From the NCBI GenBank assembly GCA_945860125.1, contig CAMAPQ010000020.1, forward strand, positions 1-36,733: a stretch of 36,733 nt of DNA, written 5' to 3'. A model generated the notes under the pieces. That model worked only from the letters and a program-made list of their open reading frames with translations. It was not told the DNA's origin and did not search any database. This document shows positions 24,224 to 33,337 of the stretch, one piece after another. Each line of letters starts with the position of its first letter. Position 1 is the first letter of the stretch. Both the position numbers and the translations under genes were made by a program. This DNA is from Klebsiella pneumoniae (lineage in GTDB: Bacteria; Pseudomonadota; Gammaproteobacteria; Pseudomonadales; CAMAPQ01).

Positions 24224-24328
24224 TTAGGACTTACGCAAAATTGTCCCAGCAAGACGTCGCGATGAAGGCAGTACAAATCGTACGACGAAGCTTGACAACA
24301 AAGCTGGGCAGCTTTGCGTAAGTCCTAA
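24224..24328. mobile_element. 105-bp MITE-like palindromic element with perfect 16-bp terminal inverted repeats
   Basis: TTAGGACTTACGCAAA (24224-24239) / TTTGCGTAAGTCCTAA (24313-24328); inner CCCAGC/GCTGGG pairing; possible 3-bp ATA flanking duplication. Confidence 0.7.
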
Positions 24329-25099: not shown

Positions 25100-25933
25100 T
25101 TATAATTTTTTAATCATCTCGATTGCTGGCAATGTCTTCGGCAGAACATTACGCCAAACAAAAAAAGCTTCGGCAGCCTGCTCAACTAACATGCCTAATC
25201 CATCGCATAATTGAACAGCGCCTAATTTTTCAGCCATCTTTAAAAAAGGCGTTTGTTCTTTGCCATAAACAAGATCATAACAAAAGGTATGCGCTGAAAG
25301 CGTTGAGAAAGGAATGGCAATATTTTGATTGCTCACCCCCATAGACGTTCCATTAATTAAAAAATCAACTTTATCTTCGCTAAACATTTGCTCGCACTCA
25401 CGTGAATCAAGCGCAAAAACATTGGGAAAATGAGCAGAAAAATAAGCGGCTAATCCTTGCGCTTTTTCATGCGTACGATTAACCACATAAACGTTTGCAG
25501 GCTGCTTTTCAAGCATTGGTGCAAGAATTCCTCGCACTGCCCCACCAGCACCTAAAATAACAACATTTTTATTCTTAAAATCACAATGATGATTTTGATA
25601 AATATCACGCATAAAACCAACGCCATCGGTATTATCACCCTCTACTTCATTTTGAGCATTTAAATAAAGCGTATTGACTGCTTGTGCTAATTGCGCACGC
25701 TGCGTTACTTTTTTGGCCAAAGCAAAAGCGGTTTCTTTAAAAGGCACTGTAATATTTAAACCCTTCCCGCCTTCAGAAAAAAAAGCACGGACAGCTTGCT
25801 CAAAAAGCCCAGGCTCAATATCGCGCTTATCATATATAATTTCACACGCCACACTTTGAGCAAAAAAATGATGAATTAACGGCGATAAACTCTGTTTCAC
25901 AGGATGCCCAAACACGGCATAATGATCGATCAT
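25100..25933 (-). CDS. aroE: shikimate dehydrogenase (NADP+)
   Basis: YAVFGHPVKQSLSPLIH, NITVPFKE, DNTDGVGF, VILGAGGAVRGI, NGTSMG. Confidence 0.97.
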   Translation of the reverse strand: MIDHYAVFGHPVKQSLSPLIHHFFAQSVACEIIYDKRDIEPGLFEQAVRAFFSEGGKGLNITVPFKETAFALAKKVTQRAQLAQAVNTLYLNAQNEVEGDNTDGVGFMRDIYQNHHCDFKNKNVVILGAGGAVRGILAPMLEKQPANVYVVNRTHEKAQGLAAYFSAHFPNVFALDSRECEQMFSEDKVDFLINGTSMGVSNQNIAIPFSTLSAHTFCYDLVYGKEQTPFLKMAEKLGAVQLCDGLGMLVEQAAEAFFVWRNVLPKTLPAIEMIKKL

Positions 25934-26028: not shown

Positions 26029-26156
26029 TAGACCGTTCGTTATTGGAATCACCGGGGAGGCGGCAAGAGCGTGAACCCCATGAGCATAGATAAACTATGT
26101 GATTGGGGTGAATGAACGCTGCCAACAATGCCGTGGTTTCAAGTACGAACGGTATA
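26029..26156 (+). repeat. ERIC/IRU-like imperfect palindrome, copy 1
   Basis: 128 bp; ends TAGACCGTTCGT...ACGAACGGTATA; core GAACCCCATGAGCATAGATAAACTATGTGATTGGGGTGAA, 40 nt identical to copy 2. Confidence 0.85.
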
Positions 26157-26263
26157 CCACCGAAATGAGCGCACGTGATGCTTGTGGTGGCATGCTTCAA
26201 TTTTGTAGACTAGGCAACTTGAAGTATTCAGACTCGTAACGACCAAGCCAAGGAGGCATAATT

Positions 26264-27466
26264 ATGCATTTTTCATCAATAGGTTTTCCTAAAAAAATGA
26301 GCGTGCTATTTGTTATTCCATCGCTTTTTTTATTAAGTTTAACCGCTTGCAATAATTCAGAAAAAACACCCGCACAAACAGCAGAGGTTGTACAAATTGA
26401 AACCATTAAAATTGGTGTTGTTGCACCACTCACAGGCCCACAAGCGCATTTGGGCAAAGAATTTAAAGATGGCGCCGAAATGGCTGCTGACGAAATGAAT
26501 ACTAAAATGGCGCAAACGAAGGGGCTTATTGGCGGAAAACAAGTAACGTTTGTGATCGTTGCGGAAGATGATCAGGCAGATCCTAAAACAGCAACACTCG
26601 TCGCACAAAAACTTGCCGACCAAAATGTGAGCGGCGTGGTGGGTCACCTCAATTCTGGCACTTCAATTCCCGCCTCAAGAATCTACGCAGAAGCGGGCAT
26701 TCCTCAAGTATCGCCTTCCGCTACTGCGGTGGCTTATACCTCTCAAGGTTACAACACCACTTTTCGAGTGGTTGCTAACGACTTACAACAAGGCTCTGTT
26801 CTGGGACAGTCTGCTGTCACAAAACTTAATGCGAAAAAAATTGCTGTGATTGATGATCGCACAGCTTATGGGCAAGGGCTTGCTAATCAAGTTGAAAAAT
26901 CTGCTAAAGAAGCCGGCGCAGAAATTGTTGCGCATGAATTTACGACAGATAAATCAACCGACTTCACCGCAATTCTTACTTCAATAAAGGCAAAAAACCC
27001 AGAGGTTATCTTTTTTGGTGGTATGGATACGCAAGCGGCACCCTTGGTAAAACAACTAAAAGCGCTTGGGATAAAAGCGATTTTAGTTGTAGGTGATGGC
27101 GGCCAATCTGCTGAATTTATTCACATAGCAGGCGAAGCGGCTGAAGGCACGGTGGGAAGCTCACCAGGGCTACCAATTGAACAAATGCCAGGCGGCCCTG
27201 CTTTTATAGCTACTTTTACAGAACATTATGGCAAAATTCAAAATTATGCGCCTTATGCTCATGATGCCGCTGCTGTATTAATGGCTGCGATAAAAGAGGC
27301 TGACTCAGCCATGCCTGAGAAATATTTGCCCACTCTACATAAAATCAACTATACCGGTGTAACAGGCAACATCACTTTTGACGAGAAAGGCGACATTAAA
27401 AGCGGCGCAATTACCCTCTACCAAGTAAAAGAGGGGCAATGGCAAGTGCTGGACGTTATACGCTAA
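26264..27466 (+). CDS. livK: branched-chain amino-acid ABC transporter substrate-binding protein, predicted lipoprotein
   Basis: Signal peptide with lipobox FLLSLTAC; IKIGVVAPLTGPQAHLGKEFKDGAEMAADEMN; AGGAGG RBS; upstream of livHMGF. Confidence 0.93.
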   Translation: MHFSSIGFPKKMSVLFVIPSLFLLSLTACNNSEKTPAQTAEVVQIETIKIGVVAPLTGPQAHLGKEFKDGAEMAADEMNTKMAQTKGLIGGKQVTFVIVAEDDQADPKTATLVAQKLADQNVSGVVGHLNSGTSIPASRIYAEAGIPQVSPSATAVAYTSQGYNTTFRVVANDLQQGSVLGQSAVTKLNAKKIAVIDDRTAYGQGLANQVEKSAKEAGAEIVAHEFTTDKSTDFTAILTSIKAKNPEVIFFGGMDTQAAPLVKQLKALGIKAILVVGDGGQSAEFIHIAGEAAEGTVGSSPGLPIEQMPGGPAFIATFTEHYGKIQNYAPYAHDAAAVLMAAIKEADSAMPEKYLPTLHKINYTGVTGNITFDEKGDIKSGAITLYQVKEGQWQVLDVIR

Positions 27467-27496
27467 AACACCGAACAACCTAACTAACAACCTAAC

Positions 27497-27623
27497 TATA
27501 CCCAAAGTAATTGGAATCACGGTGAGGCGGCAAGAGAGAGAACCCCATGAGCATAGATAAACTATGTGATTGGGGTGAACGAGCACAGCCAACAATGCCG
27601 TGTTTTCAAGTACGAAGGGTATA
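27497..27623 (+). repeat. ERIC/IRU-like imperfect palindrome, copy 2
   Basis: 127 bp; TATACCCAAAGTAATTGGAATCAC...GTTTTCAAGTACGAAGGGTATA; same core as copy 1. Confidence 0.87.
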
Positions 27624-27636
27624 GGGCGAGCATGTA

Positions 27637-28566
27637 TTGGAAACCTTTTTACAGCAACTGATTAACGGCCTAGTGCTTGGCAGCGTGTATGCGCTTGTTG
27701 CGCTCGGCTATACCATGGTTTATGGCATTCTTGGCTTAATCAATTTTGCGCACGGCGATATTGTGATGATTGGCGCTATGGTTGCTACCGCTGTGGTTGC
27801 TGCAATACTAGGCTTTGAACCAAATCTGCCTCATTTAATGACTTTATTCATCGGTGTTTTTGCCGGCATTATTGCGTGCATGATCACAGGTTTTTTAATT
27901 GAGCGAATTGCCTACCGCCCTTTAAGACACGCCCCTAAACTATCACCACTGATTACCGCAATAGGTGTTTCTATTGTTTTGCAAAATATGGCGATGATCA
28001 TCTGGGGGAAACACTACATTCCCTTCCCTCATGTGATCAATGTTATTCAATATGATTTTTTTAATGCCTCTTTTTCAAACCTTCAAGTTGTAATTGTTTG
28101 TTTATCTGCCCTTACAATGTTTGCACTTTTTTTACTGGTGCAAAAAACAAAGCTGGGCTGCGCGATGAGAGCAACGGCTTCTTCACCAGAAATTGCTCGT
28201 TTAATGGGCGTGAATACCAATAGCATTATCTCTGTGACATTTATTATAGGCTCGGCCTTGGCAGCAATTGCGGGGGTTATGGTGAGTGCTTATTACGGCG
28301 TCATTCACTATTACATGGGTTTTATGCTGGGACTGAAAGCATTTACGGCTGCGGTACTCGGCGGCATTGGTAATATTTTCGGCGCAATGCTCGGCGGACT
28401 GCTGCTGGGCGTCATTGAAAGCATGGCGGCAGGCTATATAGGCCCTTTAACGGGGGGATTTTTAGGCAGTCACTATCAGGACGTTTTTGCGTTTATTGTC
28501 TTAATTACGGTTCTTTTTTTTAGACCTTCAGGCTTACTAGGCGCGCCCGTCAATGAAAAATTATAA
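27637..28566 (+). CDS. livH: branched-chain amino-acid ABC transporter permease LivH
   Basis: LVLGSVYALVALGYTMVYGILGLINFAHGDI; TTG start with AGGG(CGAG) upstream. Confidence 0.95.
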   Translation: METFLQQLINGLVLGSVYALVALGYTMVYGILGLINFAHGDIVMIGAMVATAVVAAILGFEPNLPHLMTLFIGVFAGIIACMITGFLIERIAYRPLRHAPKLSPLITAIGVSIVLQNMAMIIWGKHYIPFPHVINVIQYDFFNASFSNLQVVIVCLSALTMFALFLLVQKTKLGCAMRATASSPEIARLMGVNTNSIISVTFIIGSALAAIAGVMVSAYYGVIHYYMGFMLGLKAFTAAVLGGIGNIFGAMLGGLLLGVIESMAAGYIGPLTGGFLGSHYQDVFAFIVLITVLFFRPSGLLGAPVNEKL

Positions 28567-29656
28567 AGAAGAAACCTTATTTCATCGTCTTTTTTTGGCG
28601 CAGGATCGCTTTAAAAAAAATCAGAAAACCGTTTGGGTTTCTTTCTTTCTTTTAGCTGTTTTTCTCGTTGCGCTGCCTTTTATAACGGAAATGAGCCTTG
28701 GTAAAACATGGTTACGTATTTTAAATTTTAGCCTGCTGTACTGCATGCTTGCTTTGGGGCTGAATATTGTTGTTGGTTATGCCGGATTGCTTGATTTAGG
28801 CTATATCGCTTTTTATGCGGTAGGCGCCTATATCTATGCTTTATTGTGTTCGCCCCATTTTGGCTTACATTGGCCGCTGTGGTTTGTTTTACCGCTGGGC
28901 GCCATGATCGCTGGCTTGTTTGGTGTTTTGCTTGGCGCGCCAACCCTCAAGCTACGAGGAGATTATCTGGCAATTGTCACGCTAGGCTTCGGTGAAATCA
29001 TTCGTATTTTCCTTAATAATCTCGATGCGCCGATCAATGTCACCAATGGACCTCAGGGCGTTAATCTTATCGATCCTCTCTCGATAGGCGCTTTCTCACT
29101 TAATCAATCTTCTATGCTATTTGGCATTAAAATTTCTGGCCTTGCTCAGTATTACTATCTATTTTTAGCCTTAACACTACTCATTATTTTTATTTCAATC
29201 AGGCTACAAAAGTCTCGCATTGGCAGAGCCTGGGTTGCAATCAGAGAAGATGAAATCGCCGCAGGTGCCATGGGAATTAATACACGAAATATTAAGCTAC
29301 TTGCTTTCGCAATGGGTGCTTCTTTTGGCGGACTAAGCGGTGGGCTTTTTGCTGGTTTTCAGGGATTTATCAGCCCCGAGAGCTTTGGGTTGATGGAATC
29401 TATTATGATTTTATGTATGGTGGTGCTAGGTGGTATGGGTAATGTCGCAGGCGTTATTTTAGGGGCGCTTTTATTAAGTATTCTGCCAGAAATGCTGCGT
29501 TATATTGGCTCGCTAGAAATGCTAATGTTCGGTAAAATCATTGTTGAACCTTCAGATTTACGCATGCTTATATTTGGTTTTTCTTTAATTATTCTCATGC
29601 TTTTTAAACCGTCAGGCTTGTTACCCGCCGCCACTCAAAAAAAGCAATTATCGTAA
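28553..29656 (+). CDS. livM: branched-chain amino-acid ABC transporter permease LivM
   Basis: ALGLNIVVGYAGLLDLGYIAFYAVGAY, GDYLAIVTLGFGEIIRI; overlaps livH by 14 nt. Confidence 0.95.
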   Translation: MKNYKEETLFHRLFLAQDRFKKNQKTVWVSFFLLAVFLVALPFITEMSLGKTWLRILNFSLLYCMLALGLNIVVGYAGLLDLGYIAFYAVGAYIYALLCSPHFGLHWPLWFVLPLGAMIAGLFGVLLGAPTLKLRGDYLAIVTLGFGEIIRIFLNNLDAPINVTNGPQGVNLIDPLSIGAFSLNQSSMLFGIKISGLAQYYYLFLALTLLIIFISIRLQKSRIGRAWVAIREDEIAAGAMGINTRNIKLLAFAMGASFGGLSGGLFAGFQGFISPESFGLMESIMILCMVVLGGMGNVAGVILGALLLSILPEMLRYIGSLEMLMFGKIIVEPSDLRMLIFGFSLIILMLFKPSGLLPAATQKKQLS

Positions 29657-29671
29657 CGGCATAGGCATTTT

Positions 29672-30442
29672 ATGACAAATCCCCTCTTAAAGGTGAATCA
29701 TCTTAGCAAGCAATTTGGCGGTGTTACCGCTCTAAATGATGTTTCGTTTGAGATCATACAAAATGAAGTTTTTGGTTTAATTGGCCCTAATGGCGCAGGC
29801 AAAACAACCTTGTTTAATGTCATTACAGGCTTCTATGAACCCTCACAGGGCGATGTATTCTTAAGTGGCTTTCCTATAAACAACTTAAAAACGCATGAAA
29901 TTGTGCAGCAGGGGTTAGCCCGCACATTTCAAAATATTCGGCTATTTTCAAGCATGAGCGCGCTTGAAAATGTCATGGTCGGCTTTCATGCGCGCACAAA
30001 AAAAGGCATTATTGGCGCAATTTTAAGGGATAAAAAAACAAAAGAAGAAGAGCATTTTATTAAAGAGCAAGCTGAAAAATTACTTCAATTTGTTGGATTG
30101 ACCACTCAAAAAAATCATCTTTCTACGCATTTATCGTATGGTGATCAGCGTCGATTAGAAATTGCAAGAGCACTCGCAACACAACCTTCTTTACTCGCAT
30201 TAGATGAGCCTGCCGCAGGAATGAATGCGACAGAAACAGATAAACTAAAAGAGCTTATCCAAAAAATAAAAGAAAAAAAAATAACAATTCTACTCATTGA
30301 GCATGATATGAAGCTTGTGATGGATAGTTGTGATCGCATTCTTGTGCTTAATTATGGCAAAAAAATTGCGCTAGGCTCCCCTAAAGAAATTCAGCAAAAT
30401 CCTTGCGTTATTGAAGCCTATTTAGGAGGCGCACTGTCTTGA
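29672..30442 (+). CDS. livG: branched-chain amino-acid ABC transporter ATP-binding protein LivG
   Basis: Walker A GPNGAGKTTL; LSYGDQRRLEIARALATQPSLLALDEPAAGMN. Confidence 0.95.
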   Translation: MTNPLLKVNHLSKQFGGVTALNDVSFEIIQNEVFGLIGPNGAGKTTLFNVITGFYEPSQGDVFLSGFPINNLKTHEIVQQGLARTFQNIRLFSSMSALENVMVGFHARTKKGIIGAILRDKKTKEEEHFIKEQAEKLLQFVGLTTQKNHLSTHLSYGDQRRLEIARALATQPSLLALDEPAAGMNATETDKLKELIQKIKEKKITILLIEHDMKLVMDSCDRILVLNYGKKIALGSPKEIQQNPCVIEAYLGGALS

Positions 30443-31185
30443 ATATGCTAGAAGTACAAAATTTATCTGTCTCTTATGGTGGTATTCAAGCGGTGAGATC
30501 TATTAGCCTTGAGATTAAGCAAGGCGAGCTTGTGAGCCTTATTGGCGCAAATGGTGCGGGTAAAACAACAACATTAAAATCAATCTGTGGCCTCATTCCG
30601 ATTACATCTGGGCAGGTGCTTTATCAAGGGGAGCCTCTTTGCCATAATACTTTTTTACTTGCGTCAAAAGGTATTGCTTTAGTGCCGGAAGGTCGAGGCG
30701 TCTTTAAAGGGCTTACGGTGCTTGAGAATTTAAAAATGGGTGCTTTTCATCGCAAGGATACAAACTGTATCAGTAAAGACCTTAATAATATCTATGAACT
30801 ATTTCCACTGCTATATGAAAGACAAACACAACAAGCGGCAACGCTTTCTGGTGGTGAACAGCAAATGATGGTGATTGCGCGTGCGATGATGAGTCGCCCT
30901 AAGTTACTTTTATTGGATGAGCCTAGCATGGGGCTTGCGCCACTGATGACCGATAAGATTTTTAATATTATAAAAAAAATTGCACGTGAGGGAATGACTG
31001 TATTGCTTGTTGAACAAAATGCTAAACTAGCACTCGAAATGAGCAACCGTGCCTACGTTATGGATAGCGGAGAAATGGTGCTAACAGGAGACGCTCACGA
31101 TCTCCTTAAAAACCCGAAAATTAAACAAGCTTATCTCGGCGAATGGACCGAAGATACAGGCGGTCATGAATCAGCCTTCGTCTAA
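30439..31185 (+). CDS. livF: branched-chain amino-acid ABC transporter ATP-binding protein LivF
   Basis: GANGAGKTTTLK, LSGGEQQMMVIARAMMSRPKLLLLDEPSMGLAP; start TTG 30439 or ATG 30445. Confidence 0.95.
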   Translation: MNMLEVQNLSVSYGGIQAVRSISLEIKQGELVSLIGANGAGKTTTLKSICGLIPITSGQVLYQGEPLCHNTFLLASKGIALVPEGRGVFKGLTVLENLKMGAFHRKDTNCISKDLNNIYELFPLLYERQTQQAATLSGGEQQMMVIARAMMSRPKLLLLDEPSMGLAPLMTDKIFNIIKKIAREGMTVLLVEQNAKLALEMSNRAYVMDSGEMVLTGDAHDLLKNPKIKQAYLGEWTEDTGGHESAFV

Positions 31186-31186
31186 A

Positions 31187-31216
31187 TTGGAAATAACCGA
31201 GATTCACTTATATAAT
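31187..31216 (+). promoter_or_regulatory. sigma70-type promoter upstream of rpoD
   Basis: TTGGAA (31187-31192), 18-nt spacer, TATAAT (31211-31216). Confidence 0.6.
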
Positions 31217-31260
31217 ACCCTGTTCAAAACGCATTCAATTTAAGGGGAAGCTTGTACTCC

Positions 31261-33117
31261 ATGAGCAACGACAACCAACAAAAGACTTCTCAATTAAAAT
31301 CCCTGATCGCCCGAGGAAAAGAACAAGGCTATCTAACCTACGCGGAAGTCAATGATCATCTGCCAGACGGGATCAATGATCCTGAGCAAATCGAAGATAT
31401 CATTGGCATGATCAATGATATGGGTATTCCTGTTTTTGAAGTGGCGCCTGATGAAGATACCCTTCTTTTGGCCTCAGAAACGCAGGATACAGATGAAGAT
31501 ATCGAAGAAGAAGCCGTGGCCGCGCTAACCTCTGTTGAGTCAGAGCCTGGTCGCACGACGGATCCTGTTCGTATGTACATGCGAGAGATGGGAACGGTTG
31601 AGCTTTTAACGCGCGAAGGTGAGATTGTCATTGCTAAGCGCATAGAAGAAGGCTTAAGACAGGTAATGCACTCACTGGCTCACTGGCCAAACGCCATGAA
31701 TCATCTGCTAGATGAGTACGCCTTAGTTGCAGAAGAAAAACGCAGATTAACCGACATTATTAGCGGTTACCTTGATCCTGTGCCTGAAGGTGTAATTATC
31801 CCTGTCGCTGAGATCATGATCGAAGAAAGCGAAGATAAGCCGCTTGTCGTTGATGAAGAAGCTGAAGGTATTGCGGAGGGTGATGAAGATGCCATTGACG
31901 GAAGTCTTGATCCCGTAGAAGCAAGCACACGCTTTAATAAACTGCGTGAACTATACGAAAAAGTAATTGAAACCACTAAGAAAAAAGGGCGCGCTCATAA
32001 AACGACCCTTGCAGCGCTTGATGATCTTTCTGCTTATTTTATGAATATTAAGCTTAGCAATAAGCTTTTTGAGGCACTTACCAGTGGCATTCGTCAAACC
32101 ATTGAACAAATACGTGATAGAGAACGTAATCTGTTAAAGACCTGCCTAAAAAAAGGCAAAATGCCAAGAAAAGACTTCATTAAAGAATTCCCTGGCAATG
32201 AAATAAATCTTAAGTGGGCTGATGAGCAAATTGCGAAGAAACGAGCTTATTCTGCCGCTTTAGAAGATGCCAGAGCAGAAATTATTAGCCACCAAAAGTC
32301 ATTCCAGGAAATTGAAAATAAAATTGGTTTATCGATTCTTGAAATTAAAGAAATCAACCGCAGAATGTCTGTTGGCGAAGCACAAACGCGACGCGCTAAA
32401 AAAGAAATGGTTGAAGCTAATTTAAGACTTGTTATTTCGATTGCTAAAAAATATACCAATCGCGGCCTGCAGTTTTTAGATCTTATTCAGGAAGGCAACA
32501 TTGGCTTGATGAAAGCGGTGGATAAGTTCGAGTATCGTCGAGGGTATAAGTTTTCAACTTATGCGACTTGGTGGATTCGCCAGGCAATTACCCGCTCAAT
32601 TGCTGACCAAGCACGTACTATTCGTATCCCCGTACACATGATTGAAACGATTAATAAGCTCAATCGTATCTCACGACAGTTACTGCAAGAGTCTGGTAGA
32701 GAGCCTTCTCCAGAAGAGTTAAGCAAAAAGCTTGAACTGCCAGAAGATAAAATTCGTAAAATTCTGAAGATTGCCAAAGAGCCGATCTCTATGGAAACGC
32801 CGATTGGTGATGACGATGATTCACATCTGGGCGATTTTATCGAAGATGGCATGATTCAATCTCCCATTGAGTCTGCCACTGCGGAAGGCTTAAAAGAAGC
32901 AACGCGCTGCGTGCTTGCCAGCCTAACTGCACGCGAAGCCAAAGTGCTTAGCATGCGTTTTGGTATCGATATGAATACAGATCACACGCTTGAAGAGGTT
33001 GGTAAACAATTTGACGTAACGCGTGAACGAATCCGTCAAATTGAAGCCAAGGCGCTTAGAAAATTGCGTCATCCTTCTCGCTCTGAACAGCTTCGTAGTT
33101 TCCTTGAAGATTTTTAA
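31261..33117 (+). CDS. rpoD: RNA polymerase primary sigma factor RpoD (sigma70)
   Basis: [64 protein letters not shown] and C-terminal [28 protein letters not shown] 31261 has AAGGGGAAG RBS. Confidence 0.98.
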
Positions 33118-33195
33118 TCTTTAGTTTTCTGTATCCCTGAACCCGCCGAAGGGCTTTTTATATCTGTTATTCCTACCTTGAGCGGGAATAATAGA

Positions 33196-33337
33196 TATAC
33201 CCTTCGTACTTGACTCTTCACACTTGAACACGCGGCATTGTTGGCAGCCCTCATTCACCCCAATCACATAGCTTGTCTATGCTCATGGGATTCTCTCTCT
33301 TGCCGCCTCCTTAGTGATTCCAATTACGTTTGACATA
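33196..33337 (-). repeat. ERIC/IRU-like imperfect palindrome, copy 3, inverted relative to copies 1-2
   Basis: 142 bp; TATACCCTTCGTACTTGA...CACCCCAATCACATAGCTTGTCTATGCTCATGGGATTC...CTTGCCGCCTCC...GTGATTCCAATTA; about 14-bp extra segment and one degenerate end. Confidence 0.82.

Follow-up and report, generated by a model that had tools for sequence, protein, structure and literature searches.

ERIC elements outside their described host range: a multi-copy family in a Pseudomonadales-type genome, probably moved by an IS630-type transposase

Enterobacterial repetitive intergenic consensus (ERIC) elements, also known as intergenic repeat units (IRU) or RU-1 and entered in ISfinder as MITEEc1, are 127-bp palindromes that occupy intergenic sites in many copies and combine TA-bounded short inverted ends with the motifs GGCGGCAAG and GCCAACA and a CCCCA...TGGGG core hairpin. 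Their range is stated as Enterobacteriaceae and Vibrionaceae (PMC10969869), hosts that describe where the elements have been found and are not a defining property. Here we analyze three such repeats in a 36,733-nucleotide contig (CAMAPQ010000020.1 of assembly GCA_945860125.1; the whole stretch is hereafter called the window), whose genome falls among Pseudomonadales-type Gammaproteobacteria.

MITEPlu5, an ERIC of Photorhabdus luminescens, is 123 bp long (PMC6267812). Like the elements described here, it has this length between TA duplications and ends resembling those of CCC-type members of the IS630 insertion sequence family, in its case ISPlu3, ISPlu8, and ISPlu19 (PMC6267812); it differs in belonging to an Enterobacterales host, where it reaches hundreds of copies (~450–550). 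The CCC-type IS630 elements themselves, represented in Vibrio, on enteric plasmids, and by a relative in the window's genome that we call IS630-C, share with ERIC the TATACCC ends, a second conserved block about nine bases inward, and a TA target, but they are autonomous, ~1.1 kb long, and encode a DDE transposase, whereas ERIC encodes nothing. RUP of Streptococcus pneumoniae is likewise a small miniature inverted-repeat transposable element (MITE) that inserts at TA and is believed to depend on an IS630 element for its movement (PMC2229807); the comparison made here is one of kind.

Compared with these systems, the ERICs of the window's genome are very probably non-autonomous 123-bp MITEs that were acquired by a Pseudomonadales-type lineage, most likely horizontally, multiplied to ~110 copies, and were moved by a CCC-type IS630 transposase. 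What is new is the host lineage, the scale, and a comparison of IS and ERIC ends outside Enterobacterales. Because the link between ERIC and CCC-type IS630 elements in Photorhabdus was published in 2018 (PMC6267812), our IS630 result offers independent support and is not a first report.

Identity and genome-wide extent of the repeats

Three homologous, imperfect palindromes of 127–142 bp, all intergenic, lie where the initial annotation had placed them: copy 1 at 26029..26156 (+ strand, 128 bp, covariance model score 135.0 bits), copy 2 at 27497..27623 (+ strand, 127 bp, 161.1 bits), and copy 3 at 33196..33337 (− strand, 142 bp, 105.1 bits over 33210–33336). Copies 1 and 2 do have in common the 40 consecutive identical core bases reported for them (GAACCCCATGAGCATAGATAAACTATGTGATTGGGGTGAA). 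The TA-ended terminal repeats ascribed to every copy are intact at both ends in copy 2 alone (TATACCC...GGGTATA, with outer sequences TATACCCAAAGTAATTGG...CAAGTACGAAGGGTATA); the left end is mutated in copy 1, which begins TAGACCGTTCG and has the right end TACGAACGGTATA, and eroded in copy 3, which begins TATGTCAAACG. The core attributed to all three likewise needs amending for copy 3, which carries TCCCATG, not CCCCATG.

Judged by their sequence, the repeats are ERIC/IRU (RU-1) elements, as had been proposed. The best Escherichia coli match to copy 2 extends without gaps over 127/127 bases at 78.1% identity (E 5e-18), and at E ≤ 1e-5 copy 2 has matches in 5,203 of the 5,426 complete E. coli genomes. 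When palindromes were shuffled 500 times with composition and pairing preserved, the highest scores were 29–33, against 77, 97, and 81 observed for copies 1–3. A covariance model (R1) built from 32 copies of the window's genome alone recovers most copies in Buttiauxella massiliensis (130) and Hafnia alvei (64), followed by Vibrio hibernica (25), Vibrio 05-20-BW147 (9), Mangrovibacter (6), and Vibrio ES.051 (2). It finds no ERIC match in a further 19 named genomes, which include Pseudomonas, Marinobacter, Acinetobacter, and Pasteurella. Three model hits in Methylotuvimicrobium buryatense were rejected as a different MITE with IS630-like ends. A search of Rfam gave no matching family above threshold, and the ERIC2 typing primer matches the copies at 16–18 of 22 positions. 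Besides host order, the copies of the window's genome differ from described ERICs in the core (ATGAGCATAGATAAACTATGTGATT) and in their inner ends, which read TTGGAATCAC/TTGAAAACAC, whereas enteric and Vibrio copies have the TTCAAGTTGCAG type.

The window's genome (G000) is a 2.58-Mb assembly in 125 contigs, 96.8% complete with 0% contamination. A sequence search with copy 2 yields at least 41 matches at 89–100% identity, and the whole-genome covariance model scan that the initial annotation had recommended reveals a genome-wide family of 123 matches, 111 of them scoring at least 104 bits and 12 being weaker remnants, or one full copy per 23 kb. Of 74 end-to-end matches, 59 are 127 nt and 10 are 128 nt long, and TATACCC...GGGTATA is found in nearly all full copies. 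Among 100 copies away from stretch ends, 88 overlap no open reading frame (ORF) of at least 100 amino acids; in most of the remaining 12, only the end of a called ORF is involved. Simple arithmetic from ~111 copies in 2.58 Mb predicts ~5 triples within 7.3 kb by chance; the clustering in the liv-rpoD region that had drawn attention to the window is therefore not significant, and its group of three needs no explanation.

Insertion sites and the candidate mobilizer

At the boundaries of the element, 73 of the 74 end-to-end copies start and all 74 end with TATA. Head-to-tail ERIC dimers at C5:44090–44341 and C71:6965–7220 share exactly one TA, and without one TA per side the element measures 123 bp (TACCC...GGGTA). 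Relative to flank counts expected from intergenic TA sites, CTAT/ATAG targets are enriched 4.8-fold (40 observed, 8.3 expected; chi-square p 1e-28 over flanks) and CTAG targets 2.7-fold (5 versus 1.8), while TTAA is absent (0 versus 11.2) and GTAA/TTAC nearly so (1 versus 9.1). IS630 prefers CTAG targets.

Ends that start with TATACCC or a close variant are found in IS630 elements of Vibrio hibernica (L333), in others located on plasmids of Vibrio, E. coli, and Salmonella, and in copies from genome G286. These ends also have a second block, for example TGAAGATGC, at the place occupied in ERIC by TTGAAGTTGC or TTCAAGTTGC. We compared the 19 positions beyond TATACCC with shuffled ends, the P values being uncorrected for the choice of elements. 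For elements outside the window's genome, IS630 ends agree at 12–15/19 positions with the ends of ERICs from the same host or a related one (P 0.004 down to <1 in 20,000): 13–15/19 for elements in Vibrio and on an E. coli plasmid (P<0.001) and 12–13/19 for those of G286 (P 0.004 and 0.0008). The window's genome holds the related element IS630-C, with left end TATACCCATCGCCAATCAAAACGC (C87, C37) and right end TATACCTATCGGAAATCAAAAAGC (C113, C100, C48, C84) and with transposase pieces, mostly at contig ends, that are 52–60% identical; its ends agree with those of the local ERICs at 11/19 positions (P 0.016).

Other candidates were rejected. IS630-A of the window's genome, of another type (ends TATACTCAACTAGCTC), agrees with ERIC at 7/19 positions (P 0.5), and IS630-B (end TATAGCTGATACC) does not match ERIC. 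Nor did a search for an autonomous element bounded by ERIC ends yield one: isolated ends in the window's genome are broken ERICs, a 2.47-kb pair of ends in G419 is two separate ERICs, and the best-matching isolated ends in that genome are without a transposase. The one strong IS630-type match in G419 is an intact gene (L392 2810–3829), and the ends of this IS630, TATAGCA..., resemble the ERICs of that genome only loosely.

A multi-copy IS630 element with the end TATAGCTGATACCTTATAAAATGGC breaks the assembly of the window's genome at several contig ends (C10, C14, C39, C81, C83, C103; L152–L157). Methylotuvimicrobium buryatense 5G (G778; L292, L299, L305) carries MITEs of ~80–210 bp with ends TATACCTATCGTAGATCAAAATTCGGC / TATACCTTTCGCACTTCAAATTTCGGC, one resembling IS630-C of the window's genome and the other the ERIC right end.

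The ERIC of the window's genome thus appears to behave as a non-autonomous IS630-type MITE. In the mechanism we propose, a lineage of Pseudomonadales-type Gammaproteobacteria would have gained an ERIC of canonical type, most likely by horizontal transfer, and this would have multiplied to ~110 copies as the transposase of a CCC-type IS630 element, whose ends are TATACCC, acted in trans to cut at the ERIC ends and insert the copies at TA, favoring CTAT/ATAG and avoiding TTAA.

Host placement, distribution, and competing explanations

In a tree of 39 RpoB proteins (support here and below given as bootstrap/Shimodaira–Hasegawa-like approximate likelihood ratio test [SH-aLRT]), the window's genome lies within a clade of Pseudomonas, Halieaceae, Oceanospirillaceae, Marinobacter, and Moraxellaceae (100/99), and a separate clade (100/100) holds Hafnia, Mangrovibacter, Vibrio, Photobacterium, Avibacterium, Ferrimonas, and Thalassotalea. 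The suspicion that the host might belong outside Enterobacterales and Vibrionaceae is borne out by this position in a Pseudomonadales/Oceanospirillales/Moraxellaceae clade, which points to Pseudomonadales as its order. The nearest sampled genome by RpoB, G033, is 77% identical and of a different family; no second genome of the host's own family was present among the sampled relatives. The host lies outside the published ERIC range, although an earlier report may exist in the 2011 survey by Zo that is cited in PMC10969869.

ERICs are sparse among the host's relatives. Among 392 genomes sampled from the order, 15 have any match at all, the window's own included, and two of these match weakly (G222, G112); multi-copy families are those of the window's genome, f8, and f35, and a single match is present in each of G033, G085, G162, and G172. 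A class sample of 369 genomes contains 9 with a match, again including the window's, and several copies are present in G419, G709, G564, and G670. The deepest split of the ERIC tree (SH-aLRT 99; 100/100 in a more careful tree) separates canonical elements (enterics, Vibrio, the window's genome, f8, and G172) from divergent ones (f35, G419, and G709). The ERICs of the window's genome form one clade (96/88), consistent with a single founder that multiplied. The lone ERIC of G172, a genome near Nitrincola by RpoB (G172:C17:1503–1630, L241), groups with Vibrio copies (98/96) and is likely a single recent transfer. G419 (L263, L271, L275, L279) harbors a divergent subfamily with TATACTC ends, of which three identical copies at different places suggest recent movement.

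Two explanations would dispose of the finding altogether. Some IS630-type MITEs that also end in TA, such as those of Methylotuvimicrobium buryatense, have a core quite unlike that of ERIC, and an unrelated palindrome might merely resemble ERIC; convergence of this sort is refuted by the ungapped full-length E. coli alignment and by the shuffled palindromes, the asymmetric motifs GGCGGCAAG and GCCAACA are conserved as well, and we consider it extremely improbable. Misbinning of the window, as a contig that really belongs to an enteric bacterium or a Vibrio, is scarcely conceivable, despite the division of the assembly into 125 contigs, given that rpoB, which places the genome outside enterics and Vibrio, lies together with rpoC on the window's own contig, that copies are present on most of the longer contigs of an assembly with the completeness and contamination values stated above, and that the ERICs of this genome form a clade of their own.

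Two others accept the elements as ERICs and concern how they came to be there and why they persist. ERIC could have been present in a common gammaproteobacterial ancestor and been lost from most lineages, as its low-frequency occurrence across several orders and the sister relationship of the multi-copy families f8 and f35 by RpoB (100/98) might indicate; but matches in so few genomes of the order and class would require very many losses, and ERICs from opposite sides of the deepest split are held by f8 and f35 and likewise by the window's genome and G033, its sister by RpoB, which carries a divergent copy. An approximately unbiased (AU) test rejects a single clade of Pseudomonadales ERICs (p 0.026), though not a clade of f8 and f35 ERICs alone (p 0.109). 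This conflict between ERIC tree and host tree suggests that horizontal transfer is a better reading than vertical descent, which we hold to be unlikely, without amounting to proof. The copies might instead be kept for a hairpin role in mRNA stabilization, processing, or termination and not be selfish passengers. The folds of copies 1 and 2 are far stronger than those of shuffled sequences (z-scores −8.7 and −7.8), and among 37 cross-lineage copies, for which the RNAalifold structure was derived from the same alignment as the pairing counts, 95% of the cells at consensus pairs are paired and two-sided changes are present in 27 of 30 pairs. In tandem gene pairs, 34 copies run along the direction of the genes versus 18 against it, and De Gregorio et al., as far as their work is summarized in PMC2229807, describe a Yersinia ERIC that alters upstream mRNA stability according to its orientation. 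That orientation bias is weak, however, and copy 3 (z −1.7) folds hardly better than its shuffles. The hairpin appears to be under constraint, but the need for a palindrome in transposition, or hairpin-templated repair, is as compatible with conserved pairing as an RNA role is, and transposition alone explains the target preference and the near-identical copies, so that retention for a host function seems quite unlikely.

Movement of the ERICs by a CCC-type IS630 transposase after horizontal acquisition has points against it. The fit of IS630-C to the local ERICs is modest and suggestive only, and because its ends fit the ERICs of other hosts about equally (12/19; G286, G139; f8), there is no host-by-host pairing of ends for the window's genome. 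The assembly contains no complete IS630-C copy or intact gene, and the reading frame in C113 has a stop. No base-exact empty site was found: paralogous sites within the window's genome gave none that is clean, the E. coli locus of the best-matching ERIC occurs in only two genomes, and at an f35 locus where G034 has an ERIC that is absent from the syntenic place in G128, the junction is too diverged to read the TA. Finally, the ERIC tree is built on 128 columns only.

A broader reading, toward which we lean slightly, is that ERIC may belong, as a single branch, to a MITE superfamily spread across Gammaproteobacteria. This superfamily would comprise two or more old subfamilies, the canonical, with TATACCC ends, and a divergent one of f35, f75, f76, and f151 in which TATACTC ends are frequent; its ends would evolve together with CCC-type IS630 transposases, and it would cross between orders.

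Setting of the window copies and implications

Copy 1 lies between the divergent genes aroE (shikimate dehydrogenase; 25100–25933, −), on its left, and livK (26264–27466, +), on its right. Copy 2 separates livK from livH (27637–28566, +) within a single operon; an ERIC in such a transcribed spacer would fold into a long hairpin in the RNA, which may affect how the mRNA is processed or decays. Copy 3 is antisense, downstream of rpoD (31252–33117, +), and owes its extra length to a 14-bp tandem duplication of its own right end. Tandem duplications of 13–15 bp at the right ERIC end occur at this site (33196–33337), near position 4310 of contig C19 of the same genome (L163), and at C32:14864–15004, and could represent either a sub-family marker or a recurrent end slip. 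A second palindromic repeat, 105 bp long, is located at 24224–24328 of the window (TTAGGACTTACGCAAAATTGTTCC...GGTTTTGCGTAAGTCCTAA) and on many contigs of its genome, with ~35 near-complete copies in 0.6 Mb. It interrupts the loop of one ERIC with CTA on both sides (L166 2057–2291, equivalent to C35:17056–17290), other copies abut ERICs, and it looks like an IS5-type MITE.

ERIC is among the most cited of bacterial repeats through its use in ERIC-PCR typing, and its mover and host range have so far been vague. Our results indicate that this range is wider than usually described, and that ERIC probably moves between distant bacteria by means of an IS630-type transposase. A genome that lies outside the described families and holds both ~110 copies and an IS630-type element with related ends provides an independent system in which questions about the mover and the transfer of ERIC can be pursued. 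It also follows that ERIC-like bands need not mean enteric bacteria or Vibrio.

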